Assembly: GCA_023078555.1 (NCBI GenBank)
Contig: CM041201.1
Location: forward strand, 1,867,713-1,931,712
Source: Ulva prolifera
Lineage: Eukaryota > Chlorophyta > Ulvophyceae > Ulvales > Ulvaceae
Direction of reading: 5' to 3'
Length of the DNA: 64,000 nucleotides
Shown here piece after piece: positions 5,324 through 64,000 of the stretch. The notes below the pieces were generated by a model that did no database searches, was not told where the DNA came from, and saw only the letters and a program-made list of their open reading frames with translations. How positions within the stretch are numbered: position 1 is the stretch's first letter; each line of letters begins with the position of its first letter. Both the position numbers and the translations under genes were made by a program.

Positions 5324-8300
5324 CAGCCTAGGAAAGCGGGAGCCAGAGCGGCGGGCCACAGACCTTTGAGGTCTTCGAGGTAGTCCTCGGCAGCAGCCGC
5401 CGGGGCGGCGGCCGCCGCGCTGAGCGCGCCGGCGCCCTCGACACGATAGCGCAGGTCGCGCTCGTGCGCCTTGAGGTTCTCGACCATCGTGATGCGGGCA
5501 CGGGGCCGGATCATCGTGCCGGTGATGCGCTGCCCATTGCCAAACGTCGTCGACACCATCTCGATCGCATCCCCCGCGTCCCGCCGCTTCCGTGTCCTGC
5601 ACGCGGCACGCCGGCGGTCAGCGGCGCGGTCGCTGCCGTGCCACCGAGCCCCGCATGGGCCCTGGTGACGAGGCGCACAACAGGCCCTAAGCCACGGGCC
5701 GGCATCCTCTCACGCACACATGCGCGAGAATGGTGGATTTGCTGTAACTAGGTTTGTAACTAGGTTTGTAACTAGGTTTGTCGGCCTCCGAGTGCCATGA
5801 CCAAACGTGGGCACTGCAGCCTGTAAATGAAACACGCAATGTATATCTGGTTGGAATGCCACGGGGCGGTGGCGGCAGCGCACTTCCCCTCGTCCTCCTC
5901 GTTGTCCTTGTCTGGGTCATCACACATGCACCTCTGCGAGACCTCGAGGATCGTGTCCCAGGCGTGCAGCAGCGAGCCGTGCAGCACGTCGACGCGCTGC
6001 TGCCGGCACAGGTAGCTACAGTGCCCCGCCTTCTCCAGGGCCAGGCAGGGCTTCTTGTGTTGGCACTGCGTCTCGGTGTACCTGCACAAAAGGCAGTGCC
6101 CCTCAGCCGCAGCTCGCGCGAGAGCAGCGCAGGAGAGCCCAGGAAGGCACGGGCGCGGCCGGGAGATGGTCCGGGGAAAGCACAGGTGCGTCAGAATCTC
6201 GCTACAGAGACAGCCTCTGAGCCCTCGGCTCCCACGTCACCGCGGCATGCAGTGCAAATGGGCACATGCGTCGGCATGGCACCTGAGAATCCAGAGCAGT
6301 GGTCCCCCATCACGCGGGGCAATCATGCATGAGCGCGCTCCGGCGCAATCACGTGCACGTCAACGGGCGGAGGAGAGGAGGGGAGAGGAGGAGGTGCGCA
6401 CTTGTACCAGAACTGCCACAGCTTCCGCGCCGCCGCCTCGTTCTTCTCGAGCTTCCAGTGGCTCCTGAACTGGTCCCAGTGCTGGTTCGCCGCGTTGCAC
6501 TGCCACGGCGCACGCTGCAGGATCCTCACCGTGCGGCCGTCGCCGGGGGTGCGGATGACGCCCGTCACGAGGGCGATCTTGTCGCGGCCCGTTTCGAGGG
6601 CGTTCTGCGGCCGCTTGCGCACGTAGAAGCCGACGCTGGCGAGCGGCAGGCGCGACCCGTACTTCTCGAGCTGCACCTTGTTCTCTTCGATCAACTGCAC
6701 CGCCTCCTCGTACGACAGCCCAACCTCGATGTTGAGTGTCGTCAACCGCATCTGCAACAGCACACCCGGTCTGTGATTCCTTCGCATGTGCATTTGATCC
6801 GGGGCTCGTTGACAGAGCCCCAGAGCCGCAGGTTGATGAAAAATACACCTAAAGCTCACATGATTCTAAATGCCCTTGAGGTAGAGGGACCCCCACGCTG
6901 CCAGGAAAGGACGTTTCTCTGCGACCACGTCCGCCCACATGGTATTGACCCAGGCGGCAGAGCTGACTGATGTGTCAGCGCACGCGTCCATTGAAGACCC
7001 TGTGTGATCAAGGGCCCATGTAGCCATACACAAGCCCAGGGCCGTGGCGTCGACACACTTCCGAGTGCTAATGTGAAATTGAGCACACGTGGCAAAGGCA
7101 GGTCCTCCCCCGCAGCTGGCTGCCGCGATGCCTGGCTGGCCTGAATTCGGGGGGCAGTGTTAGCGGTGCACACCTCGCCCTGGTTGGCTCGGGGGTGCCG
7201 CCAGATGACATCGCTCGAGCGCTCCGATACGCCCTTCTCGAGGAACACGACGCCCTTGTTGAAGGTGCCCTTCGCCTTGGCCGCCTCGATCTCGGTGTCC
7301 ACCAGCTGCTGGAAGTAACTGCACATGGTAACCGCGATCACATGACAGGCACGAAGATGACCGGGGCGCAGGCCCCCCTGCCGGCGCGACCTGCTGCAGC
7401 TTTCGCACGGGGCCGCCACACATTGAGGGACATACGGGAGGGGGTGCGCATGTCCCAACAGGTCATGCCATTGCACGGCAGGGCGCCGATACGTACTACA
7501 GGACACTCAACACAAAATGGGTTCAAGGGGGTAGGAGAGGCGCACTCAAACAGGATCGCCTGCTGCTCGAGGTTGATGCCGAGCATGCGGTTCATGAACA
7601 CCGTGAGCTTGCGTGTGTGCTTCGCCTTGTCCGAGTTGCTGTCGACCGCGTCCTTGTCGAGCACCCCCGCCTGCACGCACCACGTGCGCGCGCAGTTGTA
7701 GAACTGCAGCAGCGTTTCCGGGCAGCGGCCGAAACGCTGCCGGGGCAGCACGTCCGGGCAGTCCAGGTGCGCCGGGATACCCCGCAGCTTGATGCGCGGC
7801 ACGATCATGCCGCCTTCGCCCTCCTCGCCATGCGGCCGCTTGAAGCCCGTCAGCTCCCCGATGAACTGCCGCAGTGCTCTCGCGCCGTACTGGTTGTCGA
7901 TGTCGAATTCCTTCAGCGACTGCCCCGCGCCGAGGGCCTCGCGGTTGCCCTTGAGGATCGCGCCGAGGCTCTGCAGGCGCTTCGCGGCACTCGACGCGAA
8001 CCGGAACTCGCCCGCCGCGGGGGTCATCAGCATCTTGTACACCGGCGCGCTCGCCTGGTTGGAGCGGTGACTGCGCCCGAACTGCTGGATCGCCTTGTCA
8101 GCAGACCAGGGGAGCTCGAGGGTCAGGTGGATGCGGCGGGTCTGGTTCTCGCGCTTGAGGTCAGCCTGGAGGGAGATGCCCGTAGACGCGGCATCGCTGA
8201 TGATCGCGACGCGCTTCCCACCGTCCATGAACATGTTCCGCTCCTGCACCAGCGCATTGCGTTGCATCCCGCTGCCATCGCACAGCCAAACAGGGACCGC

Positions 8301-11300
8301 TCAGTGCCCAGATTTTAGTTTGGGGGCCTGGGAAGGAAGGGGAGTGTGAAGGGGAGTGTGAACAACTCGCACAGCCTCCATACATCCGCAACAGCCGTCC
8401 CGATTCACGCAGGCCCGGTAGCACACGTGGCTCCCCAAGAGACCAAAATGCATGGCTACATAGAATTGGGGCGCCTGCGGGAGCGCACGTGGATGTTGAG
8501 CTCCTGCTGCTTGACGCCGTCGTTCGCGCGCCTGACCGCCCGCCACTTCCCGTCCGCCTGGCACTCCATCATCTCCTTGCGCCCCGTCATCTCCGCGACG
8601 ACCTCCCGGCCGCCGCACAGGTGCACCAGGTGGTCGAGCGGGTTCGGCGGCAGCTCGAGGAGCTCGATGACGCCCTTGAGCACGTTCTTCACCATCATCG
8701 TGACCGGGTGCGGCGGCCGGATCTCGGTCTTGCCGTCGACCCGGAAGTCGTCGTAGTCGTACGCGTGCCGGGAGAGCACCATCTTCTGTTTCTTTGCCGT
8801 CATCGCCCACTGCTGCGACCTGCACGTACACTCCCCATGCATGTGTGCGACAGCAACACGCGCATGTGTGACCGCAACGTGCACAAGCACGCCACTAGCA
8901 ACAGCATGCTCGCACGGACAAGAAGGATCGGGGTTCAGTGGTCACGTGAGAGCATGACACATGCAAAACAGGTACAGCTCTAGGGCTCGGACCATTGCAT
9001 GGCAAAGTAGGAAATTATACTCAATGCATAGAGCAGGAGGAGGGCCAAAGCTAGCAAACAATCAGCAGGCACAAGCGCACCGGCCACCGCCGCCAAAGCC
9101 ACCACCGCCGCCATCGCTGTCCTCGGCATCCTCATCGTCCACGACAAACTCCTCCTCGTCCGAGGGCAGATCGGAGCCGGCATCGTCGTCGGAGGTGACG
9201 AATGACGCACCGCTGCGGGCGCTGCGCGCCGACCGCCCCGAGCGGCCGCTGGCGAGCGTCTGCCGGCTGACGCAGTCATCGTCGGCATCGTCCTCATCGT
9301 CCGATACCTGCCCACGGCGCTGCATGGCAAGAACTGCTCTTGCATTGAAACCACCATGGCATAATTCGACTCTGCTGTAAAGCCGGCATGCACATGACAT
9401 CAATGAGCGTTCAGGTTGTCCGGTAAGCGGCACGACTGAAATTCAGTACTTCATGTATCACATCTAGGTGTAAGGAACAGCACCATGTCACCCTTTGCTG
9501 TGCGCTCGCGCTTGCGCATGTCGGCCTTCACCATGGACAGCTTCTTCTCAGCTGCCTCCAGCTCCAGGCGGATGCGGCGCTTCTTCGTCACATACTCGAT
9601 TGAGTCCGGGTCGAGCATGTCGCCCTGCTGCGCCTCGGCCGCGACAGCCTGCTCGGCCGCCTCCCCACCCCCCGACACCGCAGCTGCAGCGGGCTCACCG
9701 GCCGCCGCAGCAGCGTCACCTGGGAACCCCTCGGCCACATCTGTACCCTTCTTCTTCTTCTTCTTCTTTTTCTTGTTTCCGAAGAGGGAGAACACTGCGG
9801 CCGCGCTCATGGCGGCGCCCTGCGTGGCGGCGATCTTGTCGAGCCGATTGTTGGCCGCTGCGGACACGACCGAGTTGCCACGGGCGAGCGCCGGCGCCTT
9901 GTCAGCAACAGCATCATCCTGCAAATTGCGGTGCGCAGTTGTGAGGTGACTGTCGCCATGATGAAACACCACAGCTGAATGCTGTACCCTCTTGAGACCC
10001 ATGCACACCCTCATGCATAAAGTATCAACGGGTGACGCACCTGAATCGTACTCACCATACACACGAGTATCTGCACATGAACCAGAGAAACAGCAAGATG
10101 TACATCTGGCAAAGTCTGGGTTGAACAAAAAAAAATTAACGAAAAGCATCTCTGCCACACGTCACGCACAGCGCACCTGCATCATGGCATCATCCGAATC
10201 GCCGACAGCGCCCCCCGCGTCCCCAGGGTTCGCGTCCGCCACCGCCTCCTCTTTACACTCTGCCGCCACACCCGCCGCCCCACACGCAGCGCCGTGGCCC
10301 CCGGACGTGTCCATGACAATCACATCGTCCTCCTCATCCTCGTCCGCATCCCCGACAACCACGGGCGCTGCCCCACGGGCACGCTCCGCCTCGGCGGACC
10401 CCCCAGGGCTGCCCCCACCGAGCAGGTCGGCGAGCACCTCCAGCTCCTCCTCCGGCGACACCTCCGCGGCGGCGACGGCGTCGGGTGTGAGGCCAGCGGC
10501 CTCGCACGCGGCGTGGTGCTCCTGCAGAATCTCGACCGCGGCGTCGCGCTGGCGCACCGTGTCGGCACACGCGCAGCAGAACCACAGCTGCTCCTCGTCA
10601 TCCGGCAGATCCTCCACCACCGGCGTGTGGCACGCCATGTGGGTGCCCTCCTGGCACCAGTCGCAGATGAGCAGCGTCTCCTCGTCCTCTGGGCTGTGGC
10701 ACACCTGCACAGCAGCGCCGCATCCAGCCTCCTCCTGCTGACCCAAACACTGCCGCATCGAGACCAAAGGGCGGAGCTTCGCACAAGCAACTCTGGGTTG
10801 ACCCCTGAACCTGCGACTTGGTGGCGTGCTCTCATGGACGTCAGGGCTACACACAAGGTACGGCGGAGGACCAGCCCGTCTCCAATCGAAGGCGTGCGTC
10901 GAACACCGCACATAATCAACAACTCGACGTCTGAGGCTCGCGTTTCTGGTCGAAGCAATTCTGGATCAAACAGAATGGATGCAGTGGCCATGGCCGCTGC
11001 AAGCCACGCGGTGCACACCTGGCACGCGATGTCAGCGAGGACGTCGTCTGGGAGCAAGGGATGCGGCTGCAGCGCGGCCAGGGCGGCGAGGTCCTGCACT
11101 TGCAGACGGTGGCGCTCGGCGGCAGCCGCGAGGTCGCGGCGCAGCCACACGACGGCCCGCGGACCGGTGCGCTGCCGCTTGATGCTACCGGTGGACGCCT
11201 CCGGGCCCAGCGAGCCGCAGCTCGCGGCGGGGGTGGTGGCCGCGGAGCCCGCACGGCTGAGGCTGCGGCTACGGCTGCGCCGCTTCTTCGAGCCGCGTGG

Positions 11301-14300
11301 CCACTGGAGCTGCGGGCCGTCTGAGTCGCTCCCCTCTGTGGTCACCTGTTGCAGTGTGCACATGTAACCACGCAGATCCATTTCAAGATCAGGCAACACC
11401 AGGGCCTTCATTGAGGCTTGAGGCCGCTCTAGCGCTGTGGACGACAGGCTTGCAGTGTGGGCAAGGATCAGAGTGCCCTCTTGCTAGAGCGGAGGAAGGC
11501 CCCAAACGGGAGCATCTACCGCCTGCGCTATGCGATGCAGCAGGTCCTCGACATACTGGCCGAATTCAAGAACATTCTACCACCCAGCACCATCTACACA
11601 GCGGAAATACGTACAGCAATGCAGCAGCAGCATCCTACACTGCCAAAGACCAGCACGGCAGCCAGCAAGCACATAGGTGCTAGGAAGACCAGCGCAGCAG
11701 GCAGCAAGCACAGAGGTGCTAGGAAGACCAGCACAGCAGCCAGCAAGCACATAGGTGCTAAGATTCGCACCGTCACCGGCTTCGGTGTCACCGGCTCGTG
11801 CTGCGGACCGTCCTCAGAGTCGTCCAGCACCATGCGGCCGCCGCGGCGCCCTTCCGCCGCCTCCTCGACATCCTCCTCCTCCTCCTCCTCCTCCTCTTCC
11901 TCATCGTCAGAGTCAGCCAGGCACTGCCTTGGGCGCGCGGCGCGTGTTGGGCGCGAGCGTCGGCGGGCCGGCGCAGCAGCTCCGCGCACCGCGCCGCAGT
12001 CTGAATCCTCAGGGTCAAAGTCGTCGTCCTCCTCAGCGTCCGTCTCAGCAGCGTCCTCTTCGTCTGCTTGATCTGCATCATGGCGCACGATCGTGACTTT
12101 GCCGTCAAAGCGCGCACCCGGAGACCGTGCATGAGCCACAGCCAATGAACGCACCACACGCAAGCGCCGCCAACAGCTCACGATTTCACCGCAGCTCCGC
12201 AGATCAGAGAGCAGTGTGATGCCGCCGCGAAAGAATTGAATGCTACGTTAGATGCCGGCAGCGCACCCAGGACAGAGTCCTCCAGGTCCCCCACGCTCAT
12301 TCCGGGCCCCTCCCGCCTGTGCTTCCCGGCACGGACGCGGCCGCTGTGCAAGGCGCCAAGCGTGCTGGCTGACGCCGCGCCGCGGCCCGCGCCTTCCGGC
12401 CACCGCACGCGGCTGTTGAGCTCACGGAGCTCTTTGCGCAGCTGCTCCACGGCGGCTTGCGCGGCTTGGACCTTGCCAGCGTAGACGCTCTGAATCTCGA
12501 GGCGCGCAAGCTCACGTGCAATCTCCTTGCGGCGCCGCAGCTCGCCCTTCACCTTGTTGTGCACGTCGATCAGCGCCGTCTCCATCTCGCCCTGGAGGGC
12601 AACGTACTGATCAAGAAGGCTCCTCGCCGCAGCCCACGACCGGCCCACCAAGTGTGACTTTCTCAGTGGCTATGGCAGGAAAACAAATTCTCGCAGTTCT
12701 GATAGGAGCACAGCGCATGTGAATGCTGAAAATGTAAGTATCAGCATCGTGGCCGCTTCCCAAATTGTCCAGGTTCTGCAAATGAGCAATCGGGCCGGGG
12801 CGGAAGCCAACAATAAAAAGCACACAGTGCCAGGGGTGCAGCAGCACTTCCTAGACATCTGGCAGTGATCCATGCACGCACCTGTGTCTGCATCCACTCG
12901 TCGGAGGAGAATGCGCCGTAGGTGTTCGTCGCGAGCGTGTGCAGCGCGCGGCCCTGCGGCTGCGTCTTATGCGCGTCCACGAAGTCCTTCATCAGCTTTG
13001 ACAGCGACAGGCACGCCAGCATGCTCGCCTCTGCGTCTTCGATCTCCTGCGCCAGAGCCCCCTCGTCCTCTGATGCCGAGTCGTCCTCCAGATCCGATGC
13101 GCCATCCCCGGCGGCAAGCTCCCCCCGCGCCCGCGCCGCACGCCGCTCCGCCTTCTCATCGCGGCGCTGCTGCCGCGCCGCCGCCTCCGCGGCGCGTCGC
13201 GCCGCGGCGCTGTCGGCCGCCTGTTTGCGCAGCCGCTCCGCGGCCTCGGCGGCGGTGCCGTCGGCGCAGAGGAATTGTGCAAACGCGGTGATGGCGGCGA
13301 CGACCTGCGTCTGCTCAGTCTGGATCTCGGTCGGCGACTTGTGGCCGGCGGGGGCGTCGGGCAGGAACTTCTTGAGGATGCGGGAGATCTGGGTCTTGGC
13401 CGCAGAGAATAGCTGATCTGCACAGCCACCACCTATCTCATCCAGGACGTTGTAGTGTGCTGATTGCAGGGAGTTGTGAAGGTCTTCGGACCACTGCATT
13501 GGGACGCACAGCAGCTTTGGTGCGCTTTACTGCACTTTGGGGCTGCCATCTAAAAAGCAGGAGGTAAAATCGCTAGATTTCGTTATGTGCGACCGGGCTG
13601 ATAACCCAACACTAGCCCACAGCACACACGCAACAGAGTGCCTCCGCCTCACGATCACACGCCTGTGCACACACTGGTCCACGACACAAGGCATGCTCAA
13701 ACTACAGTGCTACTCTGTGACAGAGAACGCCCGGTAACGCAGCGCCGATATCTCAGAAATGATAACGCCCCGGGGGCTGACGCCCAGTGGGTTTGAAACG
13801 CGGATGAGGGTCCGCAACATGACACGCCGTATTTCTCATTACAATTTTGCATGAGAGGGAAGCGTGGCGGATTCTGAGGAACTGGGCGATGTGTGTCACC
13901 GGTGTATGCTGTGAGCGTACAACCTGCTGCAGAGCCCCCGGGTCCCGGGTGTATCTAGATGATTCGCCAAACAACTCCACACAGCCAGCTCAACATTTCA
14001 TTTTGTTTTCACGCAGCGGTGGTGCAGCGACGCACCTGCGGAGCCGTGCGGATTCTTCTCGGCCTCCATGTTGGCCGCGCCCGTTGACTGCAGCCCCACG
14101 ACGACGCTGTAGCCACCCGCGATCGCGTCGCGTGCCTCCGCCGCGACCGCCGGCACCTTGGCCGCCACGAGCATGCTCTTGAAGAAACGCTGGTGGTCAC
14201 CCCAGAACGTCGTCGAGATGCGGTTCTTGCTCTTCGCAAACACGCCCTCCTTGTAGATGATCATGTCGAGCAGCTGCCAGAGCGCCGCGGCGCGTGCGTA

Positions 14301-17300
14301 CTGCACCTGGAACGTCGGCTGCAGGTTGATCATCCGCAGCTGGAACTCCGCGCCCTCATACGACAGCTGCCTGCACACACGCAGACGCCTCTGTCAGCCC
14401 AAGCGGCCTGGCATGAAAGCATGCACCCACACACGATCCGTTCCTCAAAACCCGGCATCTGCAACAGCATGCGGCCTGCGCAGTCGGCCCTTCAGCGGGT
14501 GGCTACATGCATGTATGCCATGCATGAAAACATGGCTGTACACACAAGGATTGCGCATGCCACACCCAAAGGCAACATCCCTGCCAATACGGCTATGCTT
14601 CTACGCATGCGTACGTACGTGATTCCAGTTCACATGCAGGCACATGCATGCAAGGGCCACGCACCGCGCGAGGTAGATGCCATTTGCCTTGAGGCTGCAC
14701 GAGAACAGCTCTGAGGCGCCGAGGCCAGCGTCCTTGAGGCGCGTGATGAGGTCGCCCATGTCCTGATGGCCAAACGTGCCGAGGCGCGTCATGTAGGCCA
14801 TGTTCTGCGGCTCCGAGATGCCGGTCGCGCTGCTGTACATCACGGCCGCATCGGGCACGCGCTCCTGGATGTACTCCACCGCGAAGCCTGTCTGCGTCGG
14901 CTGGCCCTGGTCGTTCAGCAGGTTCTTCGCCTTGTGGCACTCGTCCAGGATGATCAGGGGCCCGCTGTCGCTCTCATCTCCCTGCACATGTGGCTGTGAT
15001 GTGGGCATGCTAGTTCCCAATAGGGGCTGTGCTGCTGTGGAATTTTGTGATGGAATTTGCCTGTTATCAGTCAGGCACTGCAGAAAGCAGTAGCTGCAGC
15101 AACACTGGGCCCAGCAACGGGAGATACATGCAGGGAGGACACATGCCATGCTCAACGAAGCAGAGCCCGCGTCCGTCTGCGCAGCTGGACACGTTGCCGC
15201 GGTAGCAGCGAGTCAGATAGTGGCAACGGCCTGTGTCGAGCTCGAGAGCGATTTCCAGCGATCAGGCTGGGCTACCACCTCACTGCAATCTCAATGGCAG
15301 CGCGCACAGCTGCTACACAGATATGCTGTGGCGTGGGGGTGCTCTGCGCATCGGTACATGCGATCAAGGAATAGCGCTGCCAGGGACACAGAACCGGGCC
15401 TGCAAGGCACGGTCTGCTGGCAGAGGGACAGGCCAGATGATCTTTCAGTCCCGAGGAGCGTGCATCTGCAATGGTGCACACGCAGGCAGGCGTGAAGGCT
15501 GTGACGCCAAGCTGGGAACGTGCCAGGAGCCATTCTGCAATGACACGGAGGCGTGCACTCTTGGCATCAAACTTCTTCTTGAAAGCAAGCTTGACAACCT
15601 CGTTGTTGGTCAATGCGACACCATCCCGCATCGATGCCTCTTGCCTGGACGGTTAGCTGTGGATCATGGCAGCACAGGACGAAGGCTGTGTTCACGTCAA
15701 CAACTCAGCAGCAAGAAGGGAGCGCACAAGTCCCTGCGGCCCCTCTTTGACTTGATATCGCCCTGGAGCTTGGCACCAGCGATGAGCAGGGAGTATGTTG
15801 CAAACAGCACACCACCTTCAGGCATCTCTCGGCTCAGTGCAAAGCTGGTGGGAGGTGTCACGTTGCCCTTAGGCCACACATCGATGGTTGGATTGCGGGG
15901 GTTGCGAGGGCAGTCCCTTTTGCTTGGGATGTTGATGTTCATGTCTGCCATATCCCGCCTGGCATCCTCCCGCAGGTCATTGCAATGTGAGAGCCACAGG
16001 ATGCGGCGTGTGCCGCGGCCCCACATCTCTTTGATCGTAGCCGCAATCTGGCGGCCTTTGCCAACACCTGCCCCATCACCGAGGAAAAATCCAGCCCGAG
16101 AGCCATCCTCCAGGCGCTCCCCTGTGAAGCGCTGCATTGCGTAAGTCACAGTCTCCAATTGTGCATTGCTGATCACCTTGGTCTCCCAGTCTTTCTGCAT
16201 ACGGTATCAGGAACTTAGCCGGAGCAGCAGGCAACTCGGGTTGTGCTTGTCCTTGATGCAGTTAGGCCAGTGAATTAAGCATCCGAGAACAAGCGCGCCA
16301 CACCCGAAGACTTTTCATATCATACCAGACTTGCGGGGGAGAGATGGCGGCGAGAGACGCAGACTCGACAATGTGGTCGGGATGGGGGTAGCCGATGCTG
16401 ACTTGCTGCGGCCTGCGTGAGCGGCACCGGGTCAGGCGCCTTGTACGCGCGTAGCATGGTACACACGGGCAAACGGTCAAAAGAGAGAGAACAGAATATC
16501 GGAACGCACCTATACTGGGAGTATCTCTTATTTTCCAAGTCATGAGCTGGTCCCTGCACGCTTTGCAACATGTGTGATGAACGAGCACGCCGCTCTCCGC
16601 ACGTTCAAATCAATATTGCGTTGTTGACCAGGGGCGCATCCACCATGCACACAGCTCAAAGCGCTCAGGACCAGCTATACAGCACCACTGACTTGTCCCG
16701 TCGGCATTCAGAATGCACAGAGCCCGCTTCAGTACGCGTGTACAGACAATGGGATGCCGCATCAAGGCGCGCAACGCACATGTTCATCGGCGTCATTCAG
16801 AAAGACATTCCCCTCTTCATTCTCCTTCTTCTTCTTCTTCTCGGCTTCTTTCTTCTTCTTCTGTACGCATTCGGCCCGTCAGAACTCCGGACTGACAAAC
16901 ATTAAAGGGGACCACCGCATGGCTCTATTTAACTTGTGAAGTAGATACAGCCACAAATCCAGAATCAGTTTCACAGCTTCATTTCTTGACCGGCTGTGAC
17001 AGCTACGATATCCGGAGTTCCGGCGCTGGTCGTGAATCAGCTGTAACAACGGGCACTTCAATCGCGAAGCGCGCTAATACAGTAAGCTACATCAACGGAT
17101 GCATGTAGATTTCCACCATCGCCTAGAATGGTGCATGGAGCGCGTCATAATCAGGTTGAGCACAGAGCCAGCTACTTCCGCACCATACTGAGTACCTAAA
17201 CAAAAGCACAAATCAAGTGCAGGCAGCACCTTTGCCAGTTCAACCTGATGTTTATGCGCTTTCTGCATGTCCAGGTTGCGCTCTTGCTCTGCGCGATTTG

Positions 17301-18339: not shown

Positions 18340-21300
18340 CTACGGACGTGGCTCGGGAGAGGCCCCGGCGCCAGGCAGGTGCGGCATGATGCCAAGCGCC
18401 CACGCCTGCGCAACCTGTGCGGGAGGGAGCTGCTTCCGCAGTGCCCTCACGCTCTCTATCCACGTCGCCAGCCCCTCATCCGCGCCGAGGATCGGCACGT
18501 CTGCAGAGCCGTTGCGGCGGCGGTACCGGATCAGCTCCGCCACGCGCCGCCCCCACACGCCGCCGGCGAGCGCTGGCGGCACGCCGCTTGGCGGGCCACG
18601 CAGCTCGCACCACAGCTGCTGAAACTCTCGCCGAGCCCCGATCTCCGCGTTGCTGCCGGCAGCCCCGCCGCTATGCCGCTGCGCCACGCAATGCATGAGC
18701 TGCTGCAGCGCTGCGGCGCGCTCCGGTGGCTGCATTCCCAGCGCGCACAGCGCAAACTGCTGCTGTAGCCAGTCAGCCAGGACCGCGCAGCGGAACGCCG
18801 CGTCTTCCGCGCACCGCCGCGTCGCCCATGCATGCATGCGCGCGGTGGTCCCGGTCGCACCAGAGGCGACTTCCAGCACTGCCACATTCGATGCGGCGGC
18901 CGCGGCGCACGCGGTCGCAAGCACCTGAGCCTGCGACCGCATCGCCCGCGCCGCCTTGGCCACCGCCCCGAATGTGTCAGCCACCACATTCCCAGTGTCC
19001 CCATCTACAGAGCCCCCGTGCCTGCGTGCGGAGGCCAGATCAGAGCTAGACCTCCTGATCAGCTGCCCCGAAAATTGCTCCTCTGCATCTAATTCGCGGT
19101 CGGCGAGTGCCGGGCGCTCCTGGGAACGATCGCCGCCGTGAAACGCGGCGACGCTGTTCCGGTTCGCATCATGTCTAAACCCGGGAAGAGCCCGGCCTTC
19201 CTGACCGGGGTCGATCCCAGACCCGCCGTGGCCTCCGCCGGCCGACCCAGCCATCCAGCGGGCATCCCGGCCCCGCCGGCCCCCACGCCGACCGGGCCGC
19301 CGCACCTCCGCGGCCACACTCCAGCTCCAGCCGGAGGCAGCCGACCCGCCCAGGCCGACATGCGCCCTGCTGCCCTTCGCGCTGTCCCCGTATCCAAGCC
19401 CCTCACCCCACGCCTGTAGCCGTGTGGTGTCTGGGGCTGCGGCACTGTCGCCTTTGCGGCGCGGTGGGCTAGCCTCCGCGCCGGAGCCGCGAACCCCCCG
19501 AGTGCCGTCGGTGGACCCTGCATCCCCCTGCGGCGCTGCCTGGGCCCCCCACGTGGCGGCGACCTGGCCGTATCCAGACAGTGCCTCCATCGCCGCGTCA
19601 CGCTGCGACCGCGCCGCGGCCCCCACCACGTGCGTGACACTCATCTCCTCCTGCATCGCATGCATGCGCACGGCCGAACTCAGCGCACCCAGCAGCGCAG
19701 CCCCGCCCACGCCGCTCGCACCACTGAGCTCCACCGCACCGCCCCCCGCCTCCGTCGACTCCTCACGGACATCGTCAACGATTGTCACAACTGGCGCCGG
19801 GGGTTCCCCCCCAGCCACCTCGTCTACGGCACTCACAGAGTTGTCAGCCCCGACCGCATCTGCCACCCCAGCCAGAAGCGCTCGCCAGTCATCTCCCGGC
19901 GCAGCCACCACCTCCGGCGAAACCAGCCACCCGACCCCGGCCGCAACGAGGTACTCCGCATGCGGCTGAGTTAGCCGGCGCTCCTCCACGAGCCGGCGCT
20001 GAGTCAGCACCCACCGCCGCACGGCGCTGACGCGCGCACGCTCGACCGCCGCGTCGCCGTCCGCCGCGCTGCGTCCAACCGCTGTGAGGTATGGCACCGG
20101 CTCGAATGACGTGGCGGCGGACGTCGCGTGCGCGAGCCGGCGCCACTGCGTGGACGTGTACGGGTCCATGTCCACCCCTGCACATGGAGCCGTTCCTGTT
20201 GATACAAATGAGTACAGGGAGCCTGAGGTGCGACAAGTGCGAGCTGTACCGTCTACAATACGCACAAAGTTCTCTACGGACGTATAAGGTGTACCGTTGT
20301 GTGTTTTGATCGTATACCTGCTGTGCGCCTGTGTATGAGCCCAGACACACACGCAATCGCCCCGGACCACGGGGGGAGCATGCACAAAGCGGTCCGTGCT
20401 ACCACGCAGAGCTACAGCAGGCACTCCACAACAGGGCCCTGCAGGGTCCTGCTTTGCGTGTGCGCGTAGGTGCGGTTGCAGAAGCCCGTGGCGGTTCAGG
20501 CGCACCTGCAGCGTACAGCAGCCGCGTCCGCGCCGCCGACAGCCGCCCCTGGCGCCACAGCGCGCGCTGCCGCTGCAGCCACAGCCACTGCCGCCGCGGC
20601 AGCGGCACGCCGTCCAGCTGCTGCAGGCGCCGCGGCCCGAGGGCCGTGCCGGCGGCGCGGCCCCCCTCCCGGGCCTCCTCCTCTTCGCCCCTGCCTTCCT
20701 CCTCTGAGGAGGCGGCCACTGACGCCGCGGAGCTACTGCTGCGGGAGGGGGTCGAGCTCTTGAGGCGCTTGGATGGAGCTGACGACGCGGCCTCGGCGCG
20801 CACCGCGACATGCATGAGGCCGCCGAGCTCCTGTAGCCACTCCTGATCGTCCGCTCCCTCGTCTGTGTCATCAAACTGGAAGTTGATCGCCTGCATGAGG
20901 CGCTCGTGTCAGGCCATCCTGGCGTAGCAGCATGTCCCAGACCGTACATCCCTCACATACATGATCTTGGGATGTTGCTCCATGCGCACTTGCAAGTGGG
21001 ACAACCACACCAGCCTCCGTGGCGACACAGCCATCAAAGCCTGATGGTGCAGGCCGCACCCCACCCAGACTTCATCCCAACCCCAGGCAACAAACATCCG
21101 ACCCCACGGGTCCCAAAAATTTATTACCGCTCTTTACCGCTCTTTGCCGCTCCTAAAGTCTGGATTGGAGGGAGGCCGGTGGCTGCAACATACCTCGAGC
21201 CGTGCGGCCACGGCAGACGAGAGCGCGCCGCGGCGACGCAGGAAGCGCTGCTGCGCCACCCACGCCGCGAGCCGCCGCTGGTCGGGGGTGCCACGGGCGC

Positions 21301-22102
21301 CCCAGTCCATGAGCTGCCAGCGTGCGGGGTCGAGTGGGGCGTCTCCGCCGCTGCCGGCCGGGGCCGCCGCCGAGCACAGCAGCCACTCGAGCAGTGTGTC
21401 AAAGTGGGCCTCCCACGCCGCCTGCGGCACCTCCTCCTGCACAGAGCCGCTCGTTGTGGTGCGCGCTTGTGGACACGACCCGTCATTGCGCGCCACACAA
21501 GCCCGACAGGGCTTACGCGTCAGCAACATTTCAGGGCAGCGTCGCCATGCATGGTTGCCATGCATGTGCTGCATTGCACCAGTGCACATGTCACGCCGCA
21601 TGCCAGACGCGGGAACCTCGATGCTAGAGGCACGAAAACGACGGCGCTGCTGCCGCGTGGGTGGAGGCAGCGGGGGGCGGGGGGCGCACGTCACTGCCGA
21701 AGTCGAATTGGAAGTTGGTCAGCACGTCGACCTTCTCCTGCTCCAGGCGGCCCTCGGCGTGGAGGATGCGCAGGCGCGACACGAAGCGCGCGAGCGTGCG
21801 CCAGCGGCGGTCGCCCTCCGGCACGTTGCAGTGGCCGTGCAGGTGCGCAAAGGCGGCGAGGGAGGCGGCGTTGCGCCAGAAGCGGTCGTTCCCGCCAAAG
21901 GGCTTGCAGAGGAGGACCATTGGGAAGCGCTGGATGAGCGCGCCGACACCATCGGGGCTGCGGGGGATGCCGCACTGCAGGGAAAGGAAGCAGGTGAAGA
22001 CAAAATCGGGGAGGGGCGGTGGGGGGGGTGGGAGAAACGATGAAAATGAGATCTGGGCCATTCATAGCAGAGCATACTGCTAGGTGTTTTGACCAAGGAG
22101 GG

Positions 22103-22135
<33 letters not shown>

Positions 22136-23436
22136 AAAGGGGAGGGGTACTAGGGATGCATGGAATGAATGTGCAGGCGGGGCGAGCTGTGTGGTATGCC
22201 TCATGGCTGTGCTGACTGTCTGGCAGGTGCTTAGCTACACGAAGGGGTGTGTCCGGTGCACAGGCAGCTGTTGGTGGTCCTGTTGGTGGTCCAGGCAGCT
22301 GTTGGTGGTCCCATCACAGCCTGGTGCTGGCCTGACTCATGCACAGGCAATGCGCAAATCACGATCCGGTCAGTGCGCCGCAGACGGTCGCAGTGAACGA
22401 GGCTGCTAAATCTTACGAGCATGCCTCCGCAACTTTGCGAGTGCATGCTGGATGTTGCGCCAATGTTTGGTTTCAGCACCACTACAGTGCTGTGATGAGT
22501 TCTTGTTGTTGCTTTGGTGGCAGCCGGTCGCTCTTTGGCTTGATGTATTTGTTTTCTTTGCCATATAATGGCCAGATATGTGTAACTTGATAAACAAACT
22601 ACAGTGCTGTGACCTCTACGATGGATCGATTATTCATCTGGGGTGGACGTGAAATCACACAGTGGTCAGCAGCCTTGCGATCCCTCATATGACAGCACCT
22701 CGACATCAACACCAAGGAATCCTCACACCTGCTCCACGAGGAAATCGACGACCAGGGGCACATTGCTGAGGACCCTCCTCCTCCTGCGTTTATCGACGAG
22801 AGGCCTGCCACTCTTTGTGACACGCCACGCCACCAGGGAGGTCACAAGGTCATCTACAACCTCTTCATCAACACCTTCAGCAGCGATCAGCGCCTCGATG
22901 CTCCCTTCCTGCAGGGTGCAGACATCTGAGCCGGTGGTGTGTTGGACAGGTCACACTTGGGGCCCATCGCATGGGGGACCGACGCAGCTACATTACCAAG
23001 ATATGACACGAACACATTGACAAATGTCAGATATGTATTATTCTACTGGGTTTGTTTACTTCTCTGCACGCCTTACCTGCCATTCCTGCCTGGGCTTCTT
23101 CACCACGGCACGCTTCTCGACAGTGAGGTGCGGGATGATTTCCTCGCCCCACCCAGAGCCACGATTGTACAAGTTGAAGATGAGCTCCGTCGGTGCATGG
23201 TCCGGTACGTCATGTTTGCGCGGAGAGAGCTGCTCGCGCTTAGACGATTGCCACGGGGATTGCGAGGCTGGAACTACCGTCAGGACACCTTCAGATCTCT
23301 CTGCCGCAACAGGCACGACAATTAGATCATGCCGCCCTGTATGGCGACTGCACCCGGGGTGCTTCTGTGGCTGCGTCTGGAACGCTGCCCTCGTTGCTTT
23401 GAGCTGGCCGATCGCAATGGCTGTCTTGGCAGGCAT
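18340..23436 (-). CDS. mTERF-like region fused to about five helicase-associated (HA) domains
   Basis: Six exons, all phases consistent, encode 1096 residues: 23436-23077, 22908-22729, 21974-21690, 21436-21194, 20890-20506, 20177-18340. Donors include GTAAGG and GTATGT. Residues 1 to about 60 are basic and Ser-rich with few acids, like an organelle transit peptide. Residues 120-205 resemble mTERF helical repeats (RRRRVLSNVPLVVDFLVEQ, then GIPRSPDGVGALIQRFPMVL). HA domains follow near 209-272 (FAHLHGHCNVPEGD), 283-365, 373-490, 494-565 and 1029-1081 (GSADVPILGADEGLATWIES), with the usual Trp and G-x-L spacing. A long Gly/Ala/Ser linker separates the last two. mTERF proteins bind organelle nucleic acids; HA domains normally flank helicases, but no helicase motifs are visible here. 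I infer an organelle nucleic-acid-binding protein. It is divergent from the thioesterase gene. Confidence 0.8.
22104..22134. repeat. Poly-G tract of 31 bases
   Basis: An uninterrupted G run lies in intron 2 of the mTERF-HA gene (a C run on the transcribed strand). Its exact length may be a sequencing or assembly estimate. Confidence 0.9.
22262..22312. repeat. Short imperfect tandem repeat (CTGTTGGTGGTCC)
   Basis: Three copies of CTGTTGGTGGTCC, two of them preceded by CAGG or GGCAG, lie in the same intron of the mTERF-HA gene. No function is apparent. Confidence 0.75.
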
Positions 23437-30096: not shown

Positions 30097-33000
30097 ATGT
30101 TGTGCGAATTGTTGCGGCAAAGCCGTCGTTCTATCAACCTTGTGCATCATGCTCGATTCTTCACATGCTCGGCGCCAGCGCGAGCCGAAGAGTTGAAGTC
30201 TGCGTTTGCTGAGGCTCTGCCCAGGGAGCAAGAGCGGATCAAGGCTCTGAAGAAAGAGCACGGAAATCACGAACTACACAGTGTGAATGTGAATATGGTT
30301 CTTGGAGGCATGCGTGGGATCACCGGTCTTCTCTACGAGACGTCGTTGCTGGACGCTGAGGAAGGAATTCGGTTCCGAGGATACACAATCCCAGAACTAC
30401 AAGTGCGACAACAGCTTCCCCTGAGCATAGCATGTCACACAAAGCATGTACATGTGTGTATGGGGGCATGGTGGCTGCCTCCTTTTCCGTAATTCAAACT
30501 CCATTCCCATGCAGAAGCTGCTGCCAACAGCAGAAGGCGGGACTCAGCCTCTCCCAGAAGGCCTCCTGTGGCTGCTTCTGACAGGCGAATTGCCCACTAA
30601 AGATCAAGTCAAGAACCTGTCTGTAGACTTGATGTCACGCAGCACCATCCCGTCTCACATCACAATGATGCTTCGCTCCTTGCCCCCAGGCACACATCCT
30701 ATGACACAGCTGTCGATGGGCATCATGGCCTTGCAGCCGGACTCCGTCTTTGCAAAGCAATATAGCGCAGGTATCGCTCTCTAACTCGTTCTTAGAAAAA
30801 CGCACATGCATCACCACTCCGAGTTGTTTTTTTCACACTTCCACCTGGCGTGTCGGCACGGACAGACTTTGGCATCATACAGCTCCTTGAGCCGGTAGCA
30901 GTTACGCCAGGTAATCAAAACCCCCCAGCAATACCTATATGCCGCTTTGCAGCATAGCCATTTCCTGCTCTGCTTCAGACGCAGTTGGTATTGTCGTGGG
31001 CTTGCTGTCGTCGGTCGCCCTGTTTAGAAGTTGTCAATCTCCCTATCGACATGGCTATGACATCATGCGTACATAGAATTGTTGAGGCTTCATCCCAGTC
31101 AAGCACACAGCGTCCCTTTAGGAAGTTATTTCAGTCTATTGTAGTGTGTGAGGCTGCATGCTTTTGCTGATCTTGTCAGCATCATGGTGCACATGGTGTT
31201 GCCAGAAGCAATCTAGCTGTCGTGCTAGCCAGGCCCAATCAAAGCACTGCGTTGCGTTACACCTGCTCATCCACTACATGCAATCGATGCCAAGCATGTC
31301 TATTCTATGTTCGTTCAGCATGCACAGCCATCGCAAACCGCATGTCCAGCCGTGTCATTTCTGTATGTCTGAATGCCCGCTGTTCTTGTTCAGCCATTTG
31401 GTTCCTGTCTGTCTGAATACCCGCTGTTCCTGGGTGTTCCCTGTGCGCCGCGGGGGCCAAAGTAGGAGAACATGGTTGCCCGCTCCCCCTGGATGCCCTT
31501 GTTGACGCTGCCGCCGAGCAGGCGGGAGATTCACATGCAGATCTGCACGCCGAGCTCGCGGTGGGGCACCTCAATCACCGCCTGCGGGCGCTTCAGGTCC
31601 TCTCCATACCTGCACACACCTGGGGCTATTTCTTGGAACAATGCACATGTCAGTCTGAGTGCCCGCTGTTCCGCCTCGTTCTGGTGCGAACGACAGAGCA
31701 GAAAATAGATACATATCCGACTACTCAAGCTGAGCCTTCCACAGTGCTAAGCACTGCTGTAGGGTGCATCGTGAGCAAACAGCAAAGCCAGATTCGCACA
31801 GGCTCTTCCACCCGAGGGCTGCACGCACCGCTGCAACATCTCGGCTGGCTCTAAACCTGCTCGAGCGTGCATTGCCATAGTCCCTGTGGTCATACAAGTG
31901 CAGGTTCGGCTCCGGCCGCTTATGTTTCTTGCAGCCACCAGCACGCCAGAGCATTACGCACGCCTGCTGCCTCCTATATGGCCACACCATGGTAAGCGCG
32001 CTGGACACACTGCAAGCTAGCTGCATCACACGTGCGGCGCATGCACTCCCTGTGCGCCCACCCCGCTCACCACCCCATACCCCCGCCATGCGCCGCGTCG
32101 TCTATCACCTGCCGTGCGCACACGCACACCCATAGCCCAGTGCTGTGGAGTCTCTCCATGACTCCGCCAGCCATGACATGAGAATCAACCGCCTCTCGTG
32201 GGGAGTAACCGAGCTGCTGTCGCGCCCGCTGCGAGCTCCCGCCGCTCGTGGCCGCCCCGTAACACGCGGCCGCCCCATATTCCAACGCTGCTTGCATGGC
32301 CCCTCCCCTCAATTCTTTATATATTCAATTCTCTATATTTTTTGGTGTGGTGAGTCGAGGCTGTGGTGAACGGGTGTGCGACGGCGTGCAGGCATCCACA
32401 AGAGCAAGTACTGGGAGCCGATCTTTGAGGACTCGCTGAACCTGCTCGGCAAGCTGCCCGGCCTCGCGGCCGCCATCTACCGCAACACGTACAAGGACCG
32501 CACGCTCATCGCCGCCGATGAGCGGTACGACTGGGCCGCGAACCTCGCGATCATGATGGGCCTCGACAAGCACGACACCCCTGCCCTCGACATGATGCGC
32601 ATGTACCAGACCATCCACGCCGGTGCGCCCCCGCCCCGCCCCCGCCCCAAGCCCGGCGGTGCCCTCCCCTTCCAGCTGACCCCCGTGTTCAGCAGCCGCA
32701 CTGCTTCGGTACCACGGCATGGGCGACCTCCCGCCGAGGGCGTATGTGCATATTCCCAGGCATTTTGTCATTGTGTTCTTGTACAGCGTGTCGGGCGCTG
32801 GGACGAGGCGGTGCCTGTGGGCCGTGGGCCGAGGCGACGCCTCGGGGAGGGCAGGGGGGCCGTGGTGTGGCAGCCGTCGCCAGATGCGTGTGGCGGCGCC
32901 GCGCTGTGCTGGGAGGGAGGGAGGGCAGGTGCCTTGCAGCAGTGCCTCCGCAGGCTGCCGCAGCACAGCAGCGGGTCGTGGCCGAGGTGACCTGCACTCG

Positions 33001-51300: not shown

Positions 51301-54300
51301 TGCCGGGGTGCTCGTCTGTGATACAAGGTGATGCAAGGTCAGAAATGCGGCATGTTTTCCTGGAGGTGGGGGGGGGCGGCGTTGGCTGTGGCTTTGGGCG
51401 TGGGGAGGGCGCGGTGTTCCTGGTTTTGTCATCGCGAGGCGTGGTGTAAAGTAAAGTAAGTCTGGATTTACTGAGCCGTATCCTATTGGACATTGACAAC
51501 TGCGACTTAACGGGACCACATACGCCGAGGTGTGTGTGAGGGCAGCGTGGTGTTCCTGCGTGCCTTGTGAGCTTGGTCAGTGCAACACGATCACCTGCAT
51601 GGGTGAGTAGGCTGTGAGTGGGTGTGGGGTCCTGGTTGTGGCCTGGGTGGGCTGCCTGCTCGTTCTTGTATGCTGCTACCCATGTGCCTCCTCGTATCTG
51701 TCCATGTATGCGTAACACAAACCTACCTGGATGCCAGAATCTTCCATGGCATGTGGGCCTGTCTTATTGATCCAGGCAGTCATGTGCCACACTTGCGACG
51801 TGTAGCTGGTACTACTTGTCCGTGTGCCTGGGTTGCTGTCCGGATGGTCGGCTAGACTGACGTTTGGTTTTTGCGTGGAGGCCTGTCATTGCTGTGCGTT
51901 GATTTCTTTAGTTGCTCTGCCATGCAATGGCCCGATATGTGCTAGTTTCCATGCAAATAGCGCACTGCTGCAAGGACAGGTGGCAGTGAAGGTCCCCTTA
52001 GGGCTCTGTGGAGGGCACTGTGGATGCCAGCCAGGCCCCTCTGCATGGAGTAAAACCTGCTCCGCCCCGCCATGGGCTCCTTAGACCTACACGAACATGT
52101 TCCGTGATGCTGTATCGTGCGCGTTCCCTATCTCTCACACCATCCTACACAACCGCCTCCTACACTGACTGGCCTTCGATCTCGTTGTGCAGTTCCGTCT
52201 CTGAGCCAGCCCTCCGTCGCCACGATGTCACCGTCCCGCCGCGGCCGGCCACCGTCTCCACATCGCCGGGAGATGCCCCCACCCCCGTCTCATCCGGGGC
52301 GTCCCCCACCGCCTCCCCGGCCGCCCCGAGCGACGCCGCCGTCCTGCCCACAGCTCCCGCGCACCCCCCTGCTGTGCCGCAGCTACCGCCACGATTGGGC
52401 GGCTGGAGGCGGCCGCCGGAGGGGGATGACGGTGCACACCCAGCACAGCCGCGGACACCCCTGAGCGCCCGCCTCATTGCCGCGCCCGCCGCGGACCCTC
52501 CCCGGCCTGCCACCGACCAGACCCCGGCATCACCTGTGTCCGGCCGTGCGGCACCGCCCATGCCGGACCCCTCTGTTGCAGCAGAGGAGGACGAGGAGGA
52601 GGTGTCTGTAACTCTCCCCTCTCCGCCGCACAGCTTCGCTGCGCCGCATGTGCTGTGCGCCCCCCCTGCCGCTGCCGGGCAGGTCCTCCCAGACACTGCA
52701 CAGGCGGCCGGGGCAGCCGCACCCTGGCGCCGCGAGGCGGCGCGCTCCGTCCCGGCCGCCGATGCCGATGCCGATGCCGATGCGACCACCCCACGCGCTA
52801 CGCCCCTGCAGACCCTGGCCGCCCCTGCGGCCCCCACTGGTCGGGTCCGCCCTGTGGCGTCGTCACCGCTCGCCACTGTCACCGCGCGGGGCTGCATCGC
52901 CGCCGTCTCCACTGCCTCTGGCTCATCACAAGACAGCGGCAGCAGCAGCCCTGCGGCGCAAAACAGCGGCCCCGCCACCAGCAACCCGGAATCTGGCAGC
53001 CACACAGGATCCGACGGCTCCGTGGACGCGGACGGCGGCGCGAATCCCCTCGACGCGCTCGCCAGCGTGACCCTGACCCCGGTGCTGCGGGCGCTGATAC
53101 AAGACGCCCCCGCGGAGGCCGGCGAGCCCGCCGCGGAACTGTCGCCGTTGCTGGCCCCCGCGGACAGCGACGTGCTGTCGGTCGTGCAGTTCCGCAGCAC
53201 GCCGCTGCGCGCGATCCCAGAGCACGAGCCCGTGACGCACGGCATCAGCAGCTCCTCATGGGCGACGTCGGACCTCGTCAGCGTCAGCTCGTCCGCCGCT
53301 TCGCAGAGCGGCTCTGACGGCGGCTCCCCGTCGCCGGTGCACCCGCTCTTTGGCTTGTACCACAGCACCTCCAACAGCGAGGAGGCGGCGGGGGCGGGTG
53401 ATGGCCGCGCAGCGCCGCCGTCCCGGCCCCGGGTCGAGCCGGGGCCGCACTCCCCGACCACCTCTCTGCCGCGCCGCCCCGAGGGCTCACAGCGTACGGT
53501 GGTTGCGGCGGATGAGGTCCGCGTGACGCCACCGGTGCTGCGGCGGGTGGCGCGGGTGCCGGACGCGTCGGCCGAATGGCACCCTGACGCATCACTGGCC
53601 GCCGCAGATGAGGCGGACGGAAGCCGCGTGACGCCGCCGGTGCTATTGGACACACGTGTCCCCAGTGGCTCGGTAGGTGTGCTCCACAGGTCCGCTTCTG
53701 CCACAGGATCTGCTGGTGGAGGTCGAGAGACGAATGTTGGGGCAACTGCGCCGCGGCAGCCCGTTGTGGAGTCGCAGTCGGAGGATTCTGCATGGATAAC
53801 TTCGCCGGCTCAGCCGCAACGTGCGGGCACGTCGCCGGCACAGCTGTCGCCGTCAGAAGAGTCCTCGGCCGGTCCGTCGCCGCCACATCGGCCGGCCGCC
53901 GAGATGTTTCTCGCGGATCTGTCGCTGACGCGTCTCGGCCTGGCGGAGCATTCCATGGCGGACCTGCTCCCGCCACAGCTGTCGCCGGCGGAGCAGCTGA
54001 TTGCCGACGTGCTGCCGCCGTGGCTCTCGTCGGCAGAGCTGCAGCAGCGGCAGCAGTCTCCGGCGGGGGAAGCATCGCCACCATGGCTCTCGTCGGCAGA
54101 GCTGCGGCAACGCCGGCATTCTCCAGACGCGCAGCTCGCAGTAACATCGCCGCCGTGGGAGCTCCGAGCCGAGCAGTCGATGGTGGCTCTGTCGTCACGC
54201 CCAGCGTCGGGAAGCGAGGCGATCGTGTCGGACCTATCGCTTGCAGGGCTATCTTCTGCTCTGCACTCACGGGCGCACCAGCCTGATGTGCATCTCTCCC

Positions 54301-62400: not shown

Positions 62401-64000
62401 ACGGCCGCCGCCGCCGCATCCACGACGTCTGGAGACCCGGCATCGGCCCGGGTGCGGAGGCTCGAGTCTGCGAGCGTCAGCCGTGCCCCCGCCCCCGCCG
62501 CGCTGGAGTCCATCCATGCATTCAACTCCTGCGCTTGGCGCGCCATCGCGGCGCTGACACTACCGCTCGCCGCGGCGGCGGACGCCCAGGGGGGCTCGAG
62601 CTGCAGGCTGCCGGGGATCGAGGCGGCCGGTAGGGTGTAGGGGTTTGATGCCGCGAGGTGGATGAGGGCCGCGCACACGTGGTCCTCGTGCTCCCGCAGC
62701 CGTCCGAGCGCCTTGCTGATCTGGCTGCCATGCGCGACGCAGATGGTCGGGAACACCAGGAGGGACACCACCAGGGCGCCAGTTTGCAGCTGCAGCCAGA
62801 AGAGGACGTACACCTGCGGCTCAGAGTGCCCCTGTCACCACATAGAGTCTGCGGCGGAATGTAGCTTGGACGCCTCTTCCGGCCCCGGACGTCGGAGTTG
62901 TCGACGTCCACATGAACGTGGCTATATAAATCACATCAATACATACATACCGGCAGGGCTGTGGTACAACCTCTTGTGCGGCCTAGCGCCATGAATGAGT
63001 GAGTGGGTTTGGGGTGGCTTCGGAGAACCGGCTCAATGCCCGGGCTCTGTCCTTTGTAAGCACATGCACTCATCTGTCACATGCGCTGGAGGACCATCAG
63101 CACATGAGGCACCTCATGAGCGATCGAATTTCAAATGAACTTAGGGTCTCGTGATCTTCTCGGTATGCTGCCGTTGAAGGCAGCACGCGTGCCTGTCCCT
63201 CCGTCGCTGACGCGGCGGCACCCGCACACGTGTTGAAGCAGGTGCATGACACGCATGCATGCGCACCATGGTGAGCCCCGAGGCCTGCTTGAACTGGAGG
63301 TGCTGGAAGTCGAAGATGTGGCGACTGCGGTAGGGTGCGTCGGGGTGCGGAGGGAGCGTGCGGACGCTGCAGCCCGGGGCGCCGCCCCCCCGGCCCACAA
63401 ACTGGTTCTCTGCCGCGGCGGTGCCGAGCTGTGGCGGCCGCCACCTCCGCACTGCAGCAACATCCCACACATCAGCGGCTGCCATCAAACGGCGAAGCAG
63501 CAGTGCGCATCATAGGGTCACATCGTTGTACAGATCTCAGACAGATTTGGGGGGGGGGGGGGGGGGGGGGGGGCTGAATCAGATCTGGGGCTGGATCTGG
63601 GGGTCAGGCTGCAGGATGAAATGCTGAATTGAAACAATTCTCAGGAGTTTCTTTCATTGTGGGTGTGGTGGGGGTGGCATGGGAGACAGGGCTGAGGGTT
63701 TCGGGACGTCAGGGCCACCTGCGCTCACAGCACCTGAGCTACCCACTGGTGGCCGTGGCTTGGGTGGCGTGAGTGTTCCTGTACGTTGTTGGCGGTGCTG
63801 CTTGCCTCCCCGCGTCTATCGTTGTAAGACACAGCACCTGGCATGCAACTGCCAGAGGTACAAGCCTCTACAAGTTCTTCACGGAGTGTTGTGTGAATTG
63901 TCCACAAGCAAATGACAGTGTTGTTTTGACGCTGCTTATATATTTACATCCAGAGGATTACGTATTTGACTACGCACCTGACTACCACAGTTGCCGGTGG
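59470..64000 (-). CDS. Unknown low-complexity membrane-anchored protein, 5' end outside window
   Basis: Three in-phase exons are clear: 63451-63267, 62813-61899 and 61680-59470 (donors GTGCGC and GTGCGT). A donor-like CAGGTGCGT at 63980-63972 suggests another exon running off the right edge, but its phase does not join directly, so a small exon may be missing. The conserved-looking part, DAPYRSRHIFDFQHLQFKQA, leads straight into a hydrophobic segment (YVLFWLQLQTGALVVSLLVF) and then ALGRLREHEDHVCAALIHLA. A second structured block is LHELFSLPLRLPTIVFAAQR, then SCLVCNDEGTKQVTRDNLDE. Between and after these are Ala/Pro/Ser/Gly linkers, with a 30-base in-frame duplication (AAARTPTAPN twice). I see at least one membrane segment and no enzyme motif. 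Large algal multi-spanning signalling proteins can look like this, but the family is not identified. Confidence 0.6.
59636..59705. repeat. 30-base in-frame tandem duplication
   Basis: Two adjacent identical units, GCCGCCGCATTTGGCGCCGT plus ten bases, encode the doubled AAARTPTAPN in the right-edge gene. Confidence 0.85.
62893..62930 (+). repeat. Half-copy related to the dispersed repeat
   Basis: GGAGTTGTCGACGTCC followed by GTGGCTATATAAATC resembles the inverted arm beside repeat copy 1 (GAGTTGTCGATGTCC ... GTTGCTATATGAA). It lies in the intron upstream of exon 62813-61899 of the right-edge gene. The TATATAAA would pass as a TATA box but is in a shared repeat. Confidence 0.5.
63452..63977. 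other. Probable intron of the right-edge gene with poly-G
   Basis: It holds a G run of about 25 bases (63549-63573). A small exon needed to fix the reading phase of the right-edge gene may lie here, but I could not identify it. Confidence 0.4.
63549..63573. repeat. Poly-G tract of about 25 bases
   Basis: The third long uninterrupted G run in the window; all three read as G on the plus strand. Confidence 0.9.

Follow-up and report, generated by a model that had tools for sequence, protein, structure and literature searches.

In the present study, we analysed a 64-kb stretch of the Ulva prolifera genome (C6:1867713-1931712; hereafter the window), the whole genome comprising 88.9 Mb in 44 contigs. 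The minus strand of the window carries a predicted gene (23436-18340) whose predicted product is an array of helicase-associated (HA) domains that lacks any helicase motor match and is preceded by a candidate mTERF-like motif. HA domains are named for, and known from, helicases, and to our knowledge they have no settled function. A first-pass annotation of this DNA had proposed a spliced protein of 1096 residues, in which mTERF-like repeats were fused to about five HA domains, and had suggested that it may act as an organelle DNA/RNA-binding factor.

Gene model and HA array

Six minus-strand exons could be joined through GT-AG junctions with phases of 0, 0, 0, 0 and 1, giving a product of 1102 residues. 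The joins were, in order, CAG/gtaagg...ctgcag/, CAG/gtgtga...ctgcag/, GAC/gtgcgc...gtgcag/, GAG/gtatgt...atgcag/ and CAG/gtgcgc...aacag/. By eye, an alternative acceptor was noted 21 bases downstream, which gave 1095 residues; in either form, the earlier six-exon model could be rebuilt. Exon 1 (23077-23436, residues 1-120) begins with an ATG that has an in-frame stop directly upstream. Its N-terminus is transit-peptide-like by composition only, and the first Asp or Glu does not occur before residue 37. Exon 2 (22729-22908, residues 121-180) ends in VPLVVDFLVEQ and was predicted by AlphaFold2 to form helices, with a mean predicted local distance difference test (pLDDT) score of 59. Neither exon 1 nor exon 2 had a Pfam match. 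Exon 3 (21690-21974, residues 181-275) holds the remainder of the mTERF-like motif, CGIPRSPDGVGALIQRFPMVLL, and HA1 (21890-21699), and exon 4 (21194-21436) holds the bulk of HA2. Exon 5 (20506-20890) comprises the end of HA2, an acidic/Ser-rich insert and HA3, which is recognisable in the C-terminal part. Exon 6 (18340-20195) contains HA4 (20160-19924), a long low-complexity middle, HA5 (within 18630-18388) and the stop codon; its stretch 18942-18673 looks helix-rich.

To score coding potential, we used one codon-bias model trained on other exons of the window (886 codons, none from exons 3-4 of the HA gene) and a second model trained in part on exons 3 and 4 themselves. The background consisted of 106 overlapping open non-coding pieces, with a 95th percentile of -0.14 and a maximum of 0.087. 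For exons 3-6, codon bias preferred the frame of the model over the other five frames. Exons 1 and 2 lay above the 95th percentile but below the maximum of the background. The score was 0.005 for exon 1, and it was weak for exon 2 (-0.021 with the first model and 0.15 with the second). The G+C content at third codon positions (GC3) was 0.67 in exons 1-2 versus 0.77-0.93 in exons 3-6. Given the weak bias and lower GC3 of exons 1-2, together with a competing plus-strand frame in exon 2 described below, confidence in the model is lower at its 5' end than at its 3' end. The joining of exons 1-2 to exons 3-6 in one mRNA is a prediction. Intron 2, between exons 2 and 3, holds a run of about 35 G (22100-22134), where an assembly error could affect the join.

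The whole protein matched the Pfam HA family (PF03457) in four stretches, with E=1.8e-24 and 86.2 bits against a curated cut-off of 28.4 bits, as the first-pass annotation had anticipated; no other Pfam family matched at E<=10. When the units were searched singly, HA1 (E=8.6e-10, 39.2 bits) and HA5 (E=4.2e-7, 30.6 bits) exceeded the cut-off, and HA2 (E=2.8e-4) fell below it. HA3 gave a partial match over 22 residues (E=1.5), ranking below two other chance-level families, and HA4 gave no Pfam match. Each unit was also scored against the bacterial HA array of an Aneurinibacillus helicase (residues 601-1092), with 300 shuffles per unit. The z values for HA1 to HA5 were 17.5, 9.6, 3.7, 4.4 and 7.2, and the scores were equalled by 0, 0, 1, 1 and 0 shuffles, respectively. 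HA1 shared 33% identity across 61 residues with one HA unit of this helicase, which has a motor. When exon 3 was modelled with AlphaFold2 together with four further HA pieces of the window, HA1 formed three helices; block means of pLDDT were 84-91 over residues 31-90 and below 52 ahead of residue 31. A profile of seven HA units, five from the window and two from the second HA gene described below, matched the PDB entry 2kta, 'Putative helicase' (E=7.8e-8). Of the HA units in the protein, three are clear and two are degenerate, and a long low-complexity stretch splits the array; the earlier count of about five is fair, although HA1, HA2 and HA5 are more secure than HA3 and HA4. No ResIII, DEAD or Helicase_C match was found in the whole protein at E<=10. 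These results supported the earlier view that the predicted product is an HA array without a motor.

A candidate mTERF-like motif at the exon 2-3 junction

The candidate motif, VPLVVDFLVEQCGIPRSPDGVGALIQRFPMVLL, occupies residues ~174-203 and spans the exon 2-3 junction. Short motif profiles were built, since a 314-position Pfam profile can hardly be reached by one 30-residue motif. The own-genome profile, A1, consisted of seven repeats selected by eye from three PF02536 loci (L010, L011 and L012), at which only one of the four PF02536 matches passes its curated cut-off. In the PDB, A1 matched mTERF-domain proteins 1 and 2 and termination factor 1 (3.6e-8, 2.7e-4 and 1.7e-3), which we take to be MTERF3, MTERF4 and MTERF1. 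One own-genome mTERF segment alone found no mTERF in the PDB; the seven-repeat profile was needed to reach the family. A PDB-only profile was made from ten PDB segments matched by A1, and a union profile combined the own-genome and PDB repeats.

An 87-residue segment of the window protein scored 5.6 bits with the own-genome profile, 4.6 bits with the union profile and 1.7 bits with the PDB-only profile. With the own-genome and union profiles, respectively, its score was equalled by 6 and 22 of 5,000 plain shuffles and by none of 68 control tiles with either profile. When shuffling preserved the hydrophobic pattern, 10 and 11 of 5,000 equalled it. Among the 11 control stretches, one (exon 6) had been read in a wrong frame, and that of citrate synthase overran its matched part. 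With wider segment limits, the motif was equalled by 9 of 5,000 shuffles (own-genome), 36 of 10,000 (union) and 282 of 10,000 (PDB-only). Open reading frame pieces of the window equalled it in 0 of 307 cases with the union profile and in 4 of 307 with the PDB-only profile. By comparison, 17 held-out true mTERF repeats scored 4.8-28.8 bits with the union profile, each equalled by 0 or 1 of 1,000 shuffles. All 17 exceeded the window segment, and 16 of them exceeded its 50-residue core (6.2 bits). The held-out scores are flattering, because some repeats share residues with a retained neighbour and the PDB repeats had been picked as A1 matches.

The exon 2-3 junction added to the motif score. With the union profile, the joined core reached its 6.2 bits against -1.3 for the exon 2 part and 2.1 for the exon 3 part; the corresponding PDB-only values were 2.3, -0.3 and 1.6. 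Among 214 upstream phase-0 donors, the donor at 22728 ranked first with two profiles, narrowly (5.7 versus 5.1 and 4.7 versus 4.6).

Several observations weigh against an mTERF relationship of the window gene and, more broadly, against the model. Pfam mTERF (PF02536) gave no match at E<=10 to the whole protein or to a 109-residue segment, which comes close to the outcome that the first-pass annotation itself had named as contradicting its proposal, namely HHpred detecting no mTERF similarity in residues 120-205. One scoring motif was found; the second match, obtained with one profile, was an 11-residue stray at -2.8 bits, and the profile scans detected no tandem motifs of ~30 residues in the window protein. 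With the PDB-only profile, the 1.7 bits of the segment were equalled by 131 of 5,000 plain and 111 of 5,000 pattern-preserving shuffles, as well as by 2 of 68 control tiles, and the donor at 22728 ranked 29th of 214. When the exon 2-3 segment was compared with the PDB by phmmer, no mTERF appeared and the single match was unrelated (E=0.29). In exon 2, a plus-strand frame outscored the frame of the model (0.298 with the first coding model and 0.32 with the second), leaving the coding strand ambiguous. Foldseek comparison of the HA1 model with the PDB gave eight matches at E<=10 and none at E<=0.001. The 'mTERF-like repeats' of the earlier description are thus reduced to at most one degenerate motif. 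We regard this motif as suggestive and not established.

In an alternative, the gene encodes an HA-only protein and the 5' end of the model is wrong, the mRNA beginning in or near exon 3 without exons 1-2 and the mTERF match being a chance resemblance of a short helix pair. An open frame (22061-21624) that starts with ATG and continues into exon 3 would allow this arrangement, and the lower coding bias and GC3 of exons 1-2 and the low score with PDB repeats alone agree with it. However, every join is in phase with ordinary splice signals, and the sequence from the ATG at 22061 to the ctgcag acceptor encodes a proline-rich peptide read over the pyrimidine tract. In addition, the joined motif outscores either exon part with both the union and the PDB-only profiles. 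We consider an HA-only protein somewhat less likely than the joined six-exon model, which was retained as the preferred description of the gene.

A second HA gene

In the whole genome, for which match counts are lower bounds, PF03457 gave at least four matches at E<=0.001, of which the window gene and a single further gene (C6:8264351-8264740) each held two. Relaxing the threshold to E<=10 added one further piece of the window gene and one doubtful place. Two candidates, C3:362701 (E=0.118) and C6:8281839 (E=0.564), were dropped, as no HA-like frame was seen by eye among frames of at least 50 codons. The second HA gene, L009, was read as a 395-codon open frame on the minus strand (C6:8264324-8265508; L009:5325-6509), in which Pfam found two HA domains (E=1.9e-26). 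Within this frame, the part of the gene that was searched, Pfam detected no motor.

About 100 codons ahead of the HA units, the same open frame contains mTERF-like repeats, HLDVAQMLLREPRLLTADVQQVTRRLFQLRVKMPGQLDIARLLMQQPSLLLTDFEELQ. The 88-residue segment containing them scored 19.8 bits with the PDB-only profile, which none of 5,000 plain and none of 5,000 pattern-preserving shuffles equalled. With the union profile, the score was 13.9 bits (0 of 5,000 plain and 1 of 5,000 pattern-preserving shuffles), and with the own-genome profile it was 9.2 bits (2 and 19 of 5,000, respectively). The segment exceeded all 68 control tiles with each of the three profiles. Counted against L009 are the lack of a Pfam mTERF match to the repeats, the only family seen there being a sub-threshold ankyrin match (E=0.08), and the low coding bias between the repeats and the HA units, a stretch that may hold an intron. 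In a plain PDB search, MTERF3 (3m66, E=0.0098) came fourth, after three sequences belonging to an artificial tandem-repeat protein; part of the L009 signal is therefore generic to helical repeats. P..LL helical sequence lies ahead of HA units in both HA genes found, and a motor was seen in neither.

Given that mTERF-like repeats and HA units occur in one frame of L009, motor-less mTERF-plus-HA proteins probably exist in Ulva prolifera, and we interpret the window gene most readily as a divergent representative of them. As to the mTERF-plus-HA architecture proposed earlier, L009 lends it weight through repeats that match solved mTERFs in frame with two HA units; the window motif is weak, and neither gene has a Pfam mTERF match. 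The new element would be this combination, for which L009 gives stronger support than the window gene.

L009 also bears on the possibility that the window gene is a decayed HA helicase, whose ancestral motor was lost and whose remainder is drifting without function. The degeneracy of HA3 and HA4 would fit such decay. A plasmid collection searched with HA1 only gave five matches, the best of which was a motor-bearing bacterial helicase, and this too is compatible with a lost motor. However, open frames and coding bias are maintained across exons 3-6. The 395-codon frame of L009, within which no motor was found either, likewise places helical repeats ahead of its HA units. On this evidence, decay is improbable, and a maintained motor-less protein is preferred.

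Two further loci resemble or adjoin L009. At L019:880-1698 on the plus strand (C1:2261492-2261635 and around), LPxxD...MV..P.LV-like repeats aligned with those of L009 over 52 residues at 44% identity (E=0.0855). When two pieces of this locus were scored with the three mTERF profiles, five of the six scores were equalled by 0-7 of 5,000 shuffles and one by 2598 of 5,000; no Pfam family matched at E<=0.01. Beside the second HA gene, methyltransferase-like frames (L009:7456-9373, minus strand) contain VVDFGCGEGSW and CEVVEHVHDPDAF, and these frames may resemble HEN1.

Proposed role and comparison with known systems

We propose, with a probability of about 0.45, that the window gene encodes a motor-less HA array of ~1,100 residues with one degenerate mTERF-like motif in front, acting as a passive factor in organelle gene expression. 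As its N-terminal composition and the mTERF family suggest, the precursor of this nuclear gene would be imported into the plastid or mitochondrion. There, the HA array and the N-terminal helices may bind organellar nucleic acid, by analogy with the mTERF family and with the HA domains of helicases, and the protein could serve as a passive RNA/DNA clamp or scaffold, not as an unwinding enzyme. A broader proposal, which we put forward tentatively, is that green algae possess a small family of organelle factors, encoded in the nucleus, whose mTERF-type helical repeats are joined to HA arrays lacking a motor. The HA domain of helicases would here be re-used beside these repeats as a module that binds nucleic acid. 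The window gene would then be a five-HA, mTERF-eroded member and L009 a two-HA, mTERF-clear member. With only two HA genes found, both showing faint or clear mTERF-like repeats and neither a motor, these genes would offer a direct route to what HA units do alone. They would also bring a further module into the set of helical-repeat proteins behind organelle gene expression in algae.

A role outside organelles was given little credence. Here, the protein would be a nuclear or cytosolic scaffold, its HA units would make protein or chromatin contacts, and its N-terminus would not be a transit peptide. The transit-peptide reading is indeed based on composition alone, and the next gene downstream on the same strand matches a Strawberry-notch-type helicase and PHD, although such proximity is weak evidence in a eukaryote. 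By family knowledge (PMC6121570, PMC7909791), the mTERF-like repeats of L009 point instead to organelles.

In this downstream neighbour (7338-15212, minus strand), separate pieces matched Strawberry-notch-type helicase families (PF13872, E=2e-32, and PF13871, E=4e-69); a frame located between these pieces matched a PHD finger (PF00628, E=4.6e-6). Elsewhere in the window, a citrate synthase match was found at 32370-32990 on the plus strand (PF00285, E=6.5e-8). Two very long low-complexity open frames, 52002-56861 (plus strand, 1619 codons) and 59470-62559 (minus strand, 1029 codons), had no Pfam match at E<=0.01. In the genome, the chlorophyll a/b-binding family gave 38 matching pieces, and the best piece matched solved structures of LHCI and LHCII, with 98 distinct sequences at E<=1e-40 (the best 60 of the 98 listed). 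Such chains come mostly from green algae and plants, in keeping with a green-lineage alga as the likely source.

Searches for relatives covered viral and prokaryotic collections and are thus uninformative on distribution among algae. A 266-residue query from exon 2 to early exon 5 found no confirmed relative in viral and prokaryotic contigs, and the L009 frame found none in viral contigs. Within its own genome, the 266-residue query returned four places in the window gene itself and one chance match (E=1.98). In the open-access literature, we found no paper combining mTERF and the HA domain. Motor-less HA arrays are probably common in algae. On a Streptomyces plasmid (L030:2574-4297 and 5960-6235), the annotation divides the motor (DEAD/DEAH box helicase family) and the HA part between two overlapping genes, with an additional short HA-only gene close by; the arrangement may reflect either the splitting of one gene or an HA protein that naturally lacks a motor.

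The closest points of comparison are partial. Like the window protein, the Aneurinibacillus helicase WP_272443845.1 (plasmid NZ_CP116888.1) carries tandem HA units, but it combines eight HA stretches with ResIII, DEAD and Helicase_C matches, whereas the window protein has no motor match. The PDB entry 2kta shares sequence similarity with the HA alignment profile; it differs as a single chain of 74 residues and was not among the eight Foldseek matches of the HA1 model. In the mTERF family, motifs of ~30 residues and a role in organelle gene expression are described (PMC6121570, PMC7909791, PMC3981765, PMC10226603). The window protein resembles this family (PF02536; MTERF1, MTERF3 and MTERF4 in the PDB and Chlamydomonas MOC1) in one candidate motif, and it differs in having neither tandem motifs nor a Pfam match. 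L009 differs in having two HA units versus five and repeats of 19.8 versus 1.7 bits with the PDB-only profile, and it shares with the window gene the HA units, the P..LL helical sequence ahead of them and a scanned frame without a motor.

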